Source: Polytrichum commune
Lineage: Eukaryota; Streptophyta; Polytrichopsida; Polytrichales; Polytrichaceae
Assembly (NCBI GenBank): GCA_950295325.1
Contig: OX485803.1
Location: 36,101,554 to 36,165,553, forward strand
Length of the DNA: 64,000 nucleotides
Direction of reading: 5' to 3'
In this document: positions 35,126 through 38,100 of the stretch, piece by piece
Layout of the letters: the number at the start of each line of letters is the position of its first letter
How positions within the stretch are numbered: position 1 is the stretch's first letter
The notes under the pieces: model-generated
What the model was told of the DNA's origin: nothing
What the model saw: only the letters and a program-made list of their open reading frames with translations
Databases searched by the model: none
Translations under genes and position numbers: made by a program

Positions 35126-38100
35126 TCAGGGGATTAAACCGACATCCTTGAAATACTCATGCTCTAATGCAGTTCGAGCTGTTATCCGTCGACTTGGTTC
35201 CAGTGTCAGCATTTTCTGTTCATCAAGACAACGATCAATAAACGGTGTACATGTATGTGAAAGCATACACATCAAGCAAAGCTCCTAAACAAAACAACAA
35301 TTGTACTAACAAGGTGCCACGCGATCTCTTAATGGACAACAGAATACACAAATAATTAATGTACATGTAACTCACATGGCAATGATAGTTAATACTGAAC
35401 ATTTCAATATGACTAAAAAGGCTTCCTTGAATTCTACTTGGCAAACACACCATAGGAAATCCCAATCTAGACACTAACAAAATTTCAGATAAACAAATCA
35501 GGGCCCTGTATGCAGACTCACCGCTAGAAGATCAATGCCTGATGGCTCGAGACCTGGAACCACAGATGTCAAACTCTGCCACACAGCAGATCCATGTCAA
35601 CTTCATGAACATGTAGTGTGCAACTGATTCTGTAAACAATCACAACAATCGACAGTGGATATCCTCAATTGATGGATGTTTGCTGCTAACGACACAGATA
35701 CCATGGAAGACCAACACACCTTAGCAGGCCACTTTGGAAAAGCAGATTTGAAATCTGGCAGAGATGTCACCCCTGGCCACGTCTCCTCATTTGGAGTACC
35801 CAATATCCTGCATGATAAAAATATTAGCCTTGTAGGATTCTTAAGAGTGTTCCATACTAGTGCACTACAAATCATATACATCTCTTGAGTGCAATACAGA
35901 CCACACCTTGAAACAGGACATAATAGACTTGATGGGATGCTAAGACTCTATAGGAAATGCGCTAAGGTCTTGCATTCCAGAGATGCAGTCAGGACTGTCA
36001 TATTAGGGGAGAATCCAACAAAGGCACCCTTACCCCATGATGTGTAGATCAAGGTTGAGTACAGAAATAGCAGCAAAGCAAGCAGGACAGCCAAAAACAG
36101 CATCTTCACCACAATTCAGGCCAACTGAATGCTACCTGAAGATTCTGAATAGCTGATCTATTTCAGAGTCACCCGGGAAAAGAGGCCGTTGAGTCACCAT
36201 CTCAGCATAGATGCATCCAACCGACCAGACATCTACTGGTGTGGAATAGTGGCGGGAGCCTAGAAGAATCTCTGGTGCTCGATACCACAATGTCACCACC
36301 TGCCATTTCCATGTGCAACACCCAAAAAAAGTTAGATCAAGTTTAACAAATTTCAGCCTGTGTTTGGCAAGAATGAAGGTTTGAAATTCCCATTTCATAT
36401 GTATCTGTACCAACAGCACTCATCATGTGTAGGGATTTGATATCATATTCTAAGATGGATCAGAGCAACTCGAGAAAGTTGGGGATTTATTGCCTCAAAT
36501 ATTTCACATCAGTGGCTATACAGGTTGGATTCAAAGTACTTGACATTAGGGAATTTTGAGCACTCCACAGACTGGGGTGGAATGAAGTTGATTCCCAGAA
36601 TACGAAGCAGCTCTGTTGTTACTAGCAAAACAGAGACAAAGTTATTGACCATTAGAAATATATCACAGCATAGAGGGCTACCTCATGTGTGAAAGTCCTG
36701 ACAGGAATGCCAAATGCTCGTGCAAGTCCAAAATCAGCAAGCTTCAGAGCATTGGTGCGTCTGTCAATCAAAAGATTCTGTGGCTTCAAGTCACGATGGA
36801 GCACCCTGTGAGAGTGGCAATAAGCAATTCCTTGCAAAATTTGGTACAGAAACATCTGCAAGGAACAAATGTAGCCAAGTTAGGTATTTGACTACAACAG
36901 AAACAGCCAGTCCTATCCAGGCTCTTATGTCCATGACCTTTCCTCTGGCCACACCATCAAAGCCAGTATCACTTATATCACATGCTTCTATGATTTCTAA
37001 GAACTGCTTTGCCTAACTACTCCCAGCACATCAACTACTAAATGGTGCAAACACATAAAATTTGTGTTTTACCTGCAGCTCTTGCCAGGCAATGTAGAGT
37101 ACGTTTCTGAGCTACCCTGGAGATCAAGGAGAGGATACAATTTCTCACCCTTCCTACTTTCCATCATGATATTTTGGCATGTAATGAATTGAGAATATCC
37201 ACAGCCTGCAAGACCAGAAAGATAGAAAAGAAAAAACATTCTATGCTGAAAATGCAGGCTTGTGAGACATCTGATACTGCAGGCTTTTAATGACAGAAGA
37301 GATGAACCAAGGATGTCTCAACTATTCTCCTTTAATCAATTAAAAATCAAGGAGTCTTGACAAAAGAAGAAATAGAGAAAGTTAAAAAATATGTAAAGTC
37401 ACACTACTTTGATCAAGCGAGGGTCTTTGGCAAGATCGGGACAGGTGTCCATGTGCTTCTTCAGGTCTAGGTCCAGGTACTCAAAAACCAGATACAATCT
37501 CTTCTCGCTGTGCACCACATCTTGTAGTCTGGAAGCAGAACCACATTACCATGGTTGTGAGCAGAGACATATCCTTTTATAAATGCTATATATGTATGTG
37601 TATGTGTTAACAAACACAAAGGTGACAAGCAAAAGAGTTGGTTTGCAATACTTCAAAAAATAAGGGAGGTCACATTGTACAAATTAAGTTTCCTATGCAC
37701 TGAAATATCAAATGATATTCTGCACTAAGTTGGCATGCAATGTTCACATTATCGGTTGCAGGTGGCTCACCTCACAATGTTGCCATGGTGCATCTCTTTC
37801 AGAAGAGAAATTTCTCTAATAGCTGTGCTTGGAACACCTTCGTCTTCTTGCTCCAGCCGGATCTTTTTCAGGGCAATTGTCTCATTTGTAAGGCGATCTC
37901 GGGCCTTGTACACCACTCCATACATGCCCTCTCCAATCTTCTCCACTTTCTCATACTGTCATCATAATGACAATAAACATATATGAGCAACAACAACAGA
38001 CTGCAGACAGCGCGAGAGTATAGGTCTCAAAATAGAACACAAGAAAAAGCCAATGATATTACAACTAGGGATTTGTTTCATTAAGATGACATATCAAGGA

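Follow-up and report, generated by a model that had tools for sequence, protein, structure and literature searches.

The closest described counterparts of the locus analyzed here are Arabidopsis CDKA;1 and the CDKA;1 and CDKA;2 of Physcomitrium, which have the PSTAIRE motif, the T-loop and the kinase domain in common with it; Physcomitrium is likewise reported to possess two CDKA genes (PMC8797184). In Arabidopsis, a CDKA;1 with non-phosphorylatable Thr14 and Tyr15 provides full complementation, replication stress included, as summarized in passages of one review (PMC8468384), and like conclusions on the non-phosphorylatable protein are found in sections of two further articles (PMC3747318; PMC3788184). 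The Arabidopsis inhibitory kinase is given as WEE1 in the part of PMC2872877 cited here, which ascribes the phosphorylation of Thr14 as well as Tyr15 to yeast and animal MYT1. Arabidopsis WEE1 can phosphorylate both Thr14 and Tyr15 of CDKA;1, by the account in PMC8431409, and the activity level is unaffected. Tyr15 of CDKA;1 was phosphorylated by WEE1 in E. coli, where the antibodies described detect Tyr15 and Thr161 and Thr14 was not read out (PMC3490756).

Two other plants complete this picture. Hydroxyurea raises Tyr15 phosphorylation in Vicia faba, according to the section of PMC3788184 on this species, and the P-loop is thus in use in some plants. The double CDKA knockout of Physcomitrium is described as growing near-normally, with defects in light responses and in the cell cycle under nitrogen limitation; the two CDKAs are redundant in the light responses, which need a lower kinase activity than the cell cycle (all from the text of PMC8797184). 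Taken together, these partial accounts of Arabidopsis, Vicia and Physcomitrium make a neutral or near-neutral loss of Thr14 plausible at the locus described below.

A tandem pair of CDKA genes in Polytrichum commune

The window, a stretch of 64,000 nucleotides from the Polytrichum commune assembly, carries on its minus strand two CDKA genes, copy A and copy B, arranged head-to-tail; about 5.7 kb (29434 to 35126) separates the coding part of one from that of the other (Table 1). Each copy consists of eight exons of 9, 185, 121, 174, 164, 88, 54 and 90 bases, which encode 294 residues between one start (ATG) and one stop, and all seven introns are of the GT-AG type in copy A and in copy B.

The Pfam kinase domain PF00069 spans residues 4-287 and scores 260 bits in copy A and 259 bits in copy B. 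Both copies have the PSTAIRE helix, the motifs HRDLKPQN and DFG and an activating T-loop threonine, aligned to the T-loop of CDK2. A comparison of copy B with solved structures matched 122 sequences at 1e-60, with CDK3, CDK2 and CDK1 as the best. Among the best 60 of these 122 matches, the top 54 carry the name CDK1, CDK2 or CDK3 and the last six that of 'Kinase, CMGC CDK', cdc2 homologue or cdc2-like, one of these six bearing the label 'Rhodanese family protein'. As judged by sequence, both copies are CDKA (PSTAIRE-type) kinases. The inhibitory pair Thr14-Tyr15, which is usual in these kinases without defining them, is present in copy A and absent in copy B, which reads Met14-Tyr15. Copy B differs from the plant CDKAs named above by this Met at residue 14, and the two copies stand in tandem.

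Table 1. Positions of the CDKA copies (numbered along the window) and of related kinase loci elsewhere in the assembly (contig:positions).
Feature	Position	Strand	Basis or remark
Copy B, whole gene	35126-38541	minus	joined CDS
Copy B exon 1 (MDQ)	38533-38541	minus	ATGGACCAG then donor GTGAGT
Copy B exon 2, P-loop and PSTAIRE helix	37771-37955	minus	translation, splice sites
Copy B codon 14, ATG (Met) replacing Thr	37923-37925	minus	sequence and joined CDS
Copy B exon 3	37408-37528	minus	joined CDS
Copy B exon 4, holds loop RTFTHE	36682-36855	minus	joined CDS
Copy B exon 5	36136-36299	minus	joined CDS
Copy B exon 6	35720-35807	minus	joined CDS
Copy B exon 7	35522-35575	minus	joined CDS
Copy B exon 8 with stop	35126-35215	minus	joined CDS
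Copy A, Thr14 paralogue	25584-29434	minus	joined CDS
Copy A exons 1-4	29434-29426, 28842-28658, 28185-28065, 27278-27105	minus	
Copy A exons 5-8	26790-26627, 26279-26192, 26037-25984, 25673-25584	minus	
Copy A codon 14, ACG (Thr)	28810-28812	minus	sequence and joined CDS
WEE1-type locus L037	C6:27695195-27695404		WEE1 query match
WEE1-type locus L038	C2:39525778-39525990		WEE1 query match
CDKB-like pair L024, L023	C4:9401570-9460600		about 59 kb apart
CDKB-like pair L026, L025	C5:46448410-46461640	opposite strands	13 kb apart

The Thr14-to-Met substitution

The initial annotation had reported ATG at codon 14 in the copy at 35-38 kb and ACG in the copy at 25-29 kb, and both codons are read directly in the sequence. 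The span to which it assigned the change, 37771-37955, coincides exactly with exon 2 of the minus-strand copy B, and its further claim of an intact kinase gene that has lost Thr14 and kept Tyr15 is borne out by the open frame, splice sites and catalytic motifs of both copies. The Tyr15 codon is TAT in each.

Of the 294 residues, five distinguish the two proteins: T14M, S61G, T219I, A250T and G265A. With five differences spread evenly over 294 sites, the chance of a hit is 1.7% for a single named site and 5.0% for any of three (such as Thr14, Tyr15 and Thr161); since the site was chosen post hoc and site rates are unequal, a difference at Thr14 is only mildly unusual and constitutes weak evidence for selection. 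The simplest path from ACG to ATG would be one C-to-T change in a CpG codon. Eleven CpGs of copy A read TG or CA in copy B, and five are found in the opposite direction.

The literature searched, which comprised running text rather than figures or alignments and few subscription papers, yielded no plant CDKA with a naturally substituted Thr14. Animal CDK4 and CDK6 have Ala beside the P-loop Tyr and are thus natural CDKs with the Tyr and without the Thr; unlike copy B they belong to another CDK subfamily, which is not of the PSTAIRE type. The engineered non-phosphorylatable CDKA;1 of Arabidopsis shares with copy B that phosphorylation at Thr14 is impossible. The engineered protein is also devoid of Tyr15, whereas copy B is natural and retains this residue.

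Constraint on the two copies and age of the duplication

The coding sequences of copies A and B differ at 83 nucleotides, which fall on codon positions 1, 2 and 3 in the numbers 10, 3 and 70, and four methods returned a dN of 0.008-0.013 and a dS of 0.37-0.51. When 83 changes were placed at random, 55 residues were altered on average, with 41 as the lowest value of 5000 trials, and 2.3 stops arose; for 41 random changes, about half of the total, the mean was 28 residue changes and the minimum 16. Since only five residue changes are found in both lineages together, against these expectations of 55 and 28, the substitution pattern indicates that strong purifying selection has acted on copy B through most of the period after the duplication.

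Exons 2-8 are 87-93% identical between the copies and introns 54-61%, while the 9 bases of exon 1 are identical; the flanks reach 64% (5') and 65% (3'), compared with 40-46% for three random pairs. Because of these exon, intron and flank identities the duplication is not regarded as recent. Recent gene conversion is likewise unsupported, no exon standing out from the others.

Other CDK-like P-loops and WEE1-type kinases

Further CDKA copies were not seen in the assembly: the DNA search gave two matches, and the next P-loop exons in the protein search are at most 66% identical and CDKB-like. Besides copy B, 11 CDK-like P-loops were read (copy A, L003, L004, L005, L007 and L023-L028), a small part of the at least 136 protein-search matches (133 of 923 candidates scored); ten carry Thr and one, L005, carries Ser. 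L005 and L027 entered this set by similarity alone. Left out as non-CDK were the MAPK-like loci L006, L008/L009/L029/L030 (with Ala) and L031/L032 (with Ser), together with the other kinases L021, L035, L036, L039 and L040; these calls, like the names CDKB, CDKG, CDKD and MAPK-like, are our assumptions from the motifs. A search for the P-loop exon of the CDKD-like gene L034 did not find it. Among the structure matches listed, the five CDK2 or CDK3 chains whose alignments to copy B were read all carry Thr. Because Thr is found in 10 of the 11 P-loops and in five of these five chains, Met14 is most likely the derived state, and Met14 as a common CDK state in this genome was not seen among the 11 other CDK-like P-loops read.

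A WEE1 query gave eight matches in the genome, of which two are strong and the other six far weaker (at most 36 bits versus 102). The translated stretch of the strong locus on contig C6 was compared with solved kinases and matched WEE1 best (79 bits), followed by MYT1 (69 bits). These two WEE1-type loci compare with one WEE1/MYT1/MIK1 gene tabulated for Arabidopsis in PMC2872877.

A probable tolerated loss of Thr14 and its alternatives

The reading that we favor, with a probability of roughly 0.68, is that Met14 represents a tolerated loss of Thr14 in a functional tandem CDKA copy, brought about by one CpG transition. Copy B would be a functional, tandemly duplicated CDKA of the PSTAIRE type in whose lineage the P-loop Thr14 was replaced by Met. 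With Met in the glycine-rich loop, ATP binding and catalysis should still work, and Tyr15 alone would be left of the classic pair of inhibitory sites in the P-loop. The loss would be tolerated because plants may use Thr14 phosphorylation on CDKA little, so that the copy B protein would behave like a normal CDKA whose P-loop switch is simplified. Catalytic activity of copy B and phosphorylation of its Tyr15 are predictions of this proposal, and near-neutrality of Met14 is presumed by analogy with Arabidopsis and Physcomitrium. Several observations speak against a tolerated loss. Weak constraint at Thr14 contrasts with the other 289 residues, which are held at a dS of about 0.4, and the four CDKB-like P-loops and copy A suggest that Thr14 is usually held. 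Some plants do use the P-loop, as the Tyr15 data for Vicia faba in PMC3788184 illustrate, and the complementation results, as the cited passages describe them, come from Arabidopsis and not from moss.

A trivial origin of the substitution is conceivable. Only a single base is involved, and codon 14 of copy B might be a base or assembly error. Seven contigs of 77.9, 70.3, 59.2, 59.1, 52.9, 44.7 and 42.1 Mb hold about 406 of 407.8 Mb, the assembly being therefore highly contiguous, and the copies share only 161 of the 185 bases of exon 2 (87%; 24 differ), which makes a collapse or mix-up unlikely; the frame is open throughout copy B and no other base resembles an error. Such an error is considered very unlikely. 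Still less credible, and the least probable of all the readings, is that copy B is an early pseudogene or has no cell-cycle function, with Met14 as a sign of decay. That CDKA is almost dispensable for moss growth (text of PMC8797184) would be compatible with decay, but copy B contains no disabling change, every splice site is retained, dN/dS and structure are those of an intact gene, the five residue differences accumulated over both branches stand against about 28 expected for a neutral copy B branch alone, and the 5' flank has remained above the identity of three random pairs (64% versus 40-46%).

Adaptive or specialized roles of copy B were also weighed. The initial annotation had offered both a relaxed need for Thr14 and a divergence of checkpoint input; the former fits plant genetics better, whereas the latter finds no direct support in the cited accounts of CDKA;1 complementation and of the moss knockout. 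A subfunctionalized checkpoint, with copy B selected to escape Thr14 phosphorylation and copy A under double control, possibly by two WEE1-type kinases, would agree with the strong constraint retained on both CDKA copies, with the two WEE1-type loci on C6 and C2 and with the fact that one of just five differences hits a named regulatory site. It is nevertheless judged unlikely, in view of the Arabidopsis complementation by CDKA;1 non-phosphorylatable at Thr14 and Tyr15 (passages in PMC8468384, PMC3747318 and PMC3788184) and of WEE1 being the Arabidopsis inhibitory kinase, with Thr14 and Tyr15 phosphorylation by MYT1 described for yeast and animals (PMC2872877, in part). Somewhat more doubtful is a specialization of copy B for CDKA roles outside the cell cycle, such as light responses and chloroplast movement, where P-loop inhibition would be unimportant. 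The redundancy of the Physcomitrium CDKAs in light responses and the lower kinase activity needed there point in this direction, but the terms Thr14, Tyr15 and WEE1 are absent from the main text of the article concerned (PMC8797184). Slightly less probable again is a division of inhibition between the paralogues, in which copy A would be held via Thr14 and Tyr15 and copy B via Tyr15 alone, so that copy B could drive division or a task outside the cell cycle while copy A is held, with two WEE1-type kinases at work.

If copy B is active, it would be the natural equivalent, limited to one site, of the Thr14/Tyr15 mutants engineered in Arabidopsis, with a Thr14 control in the same genome, and a direct test of the importance of Thr14 on a plant CDKA would be possible. 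If Met14 is neutral, the tolerated loss would confirm in a small way, from a natural case, that plants can do without Thr14.

Further observations on the kinase loci and the window

The CDKB-like P-loop exons read here are four in number, fall into two pairs (Table 1) and all have Thr14-Tyr15. Pairs are likewise found among the loci that we take to be CDKG-like (L003, L004) and MAPK-like (L008/L009, L031/L032). The locus L005 has the P-loop KIGDGSYGVVY, with Ser at the Thr14 position, and is open over 409 residues. In the window itself, a repeat of about 500 bases occurs at three places (2185-2692, 6420-6930 and 52627-53127) that are 84-87% identical, the last two in one orientation and the first in the other.
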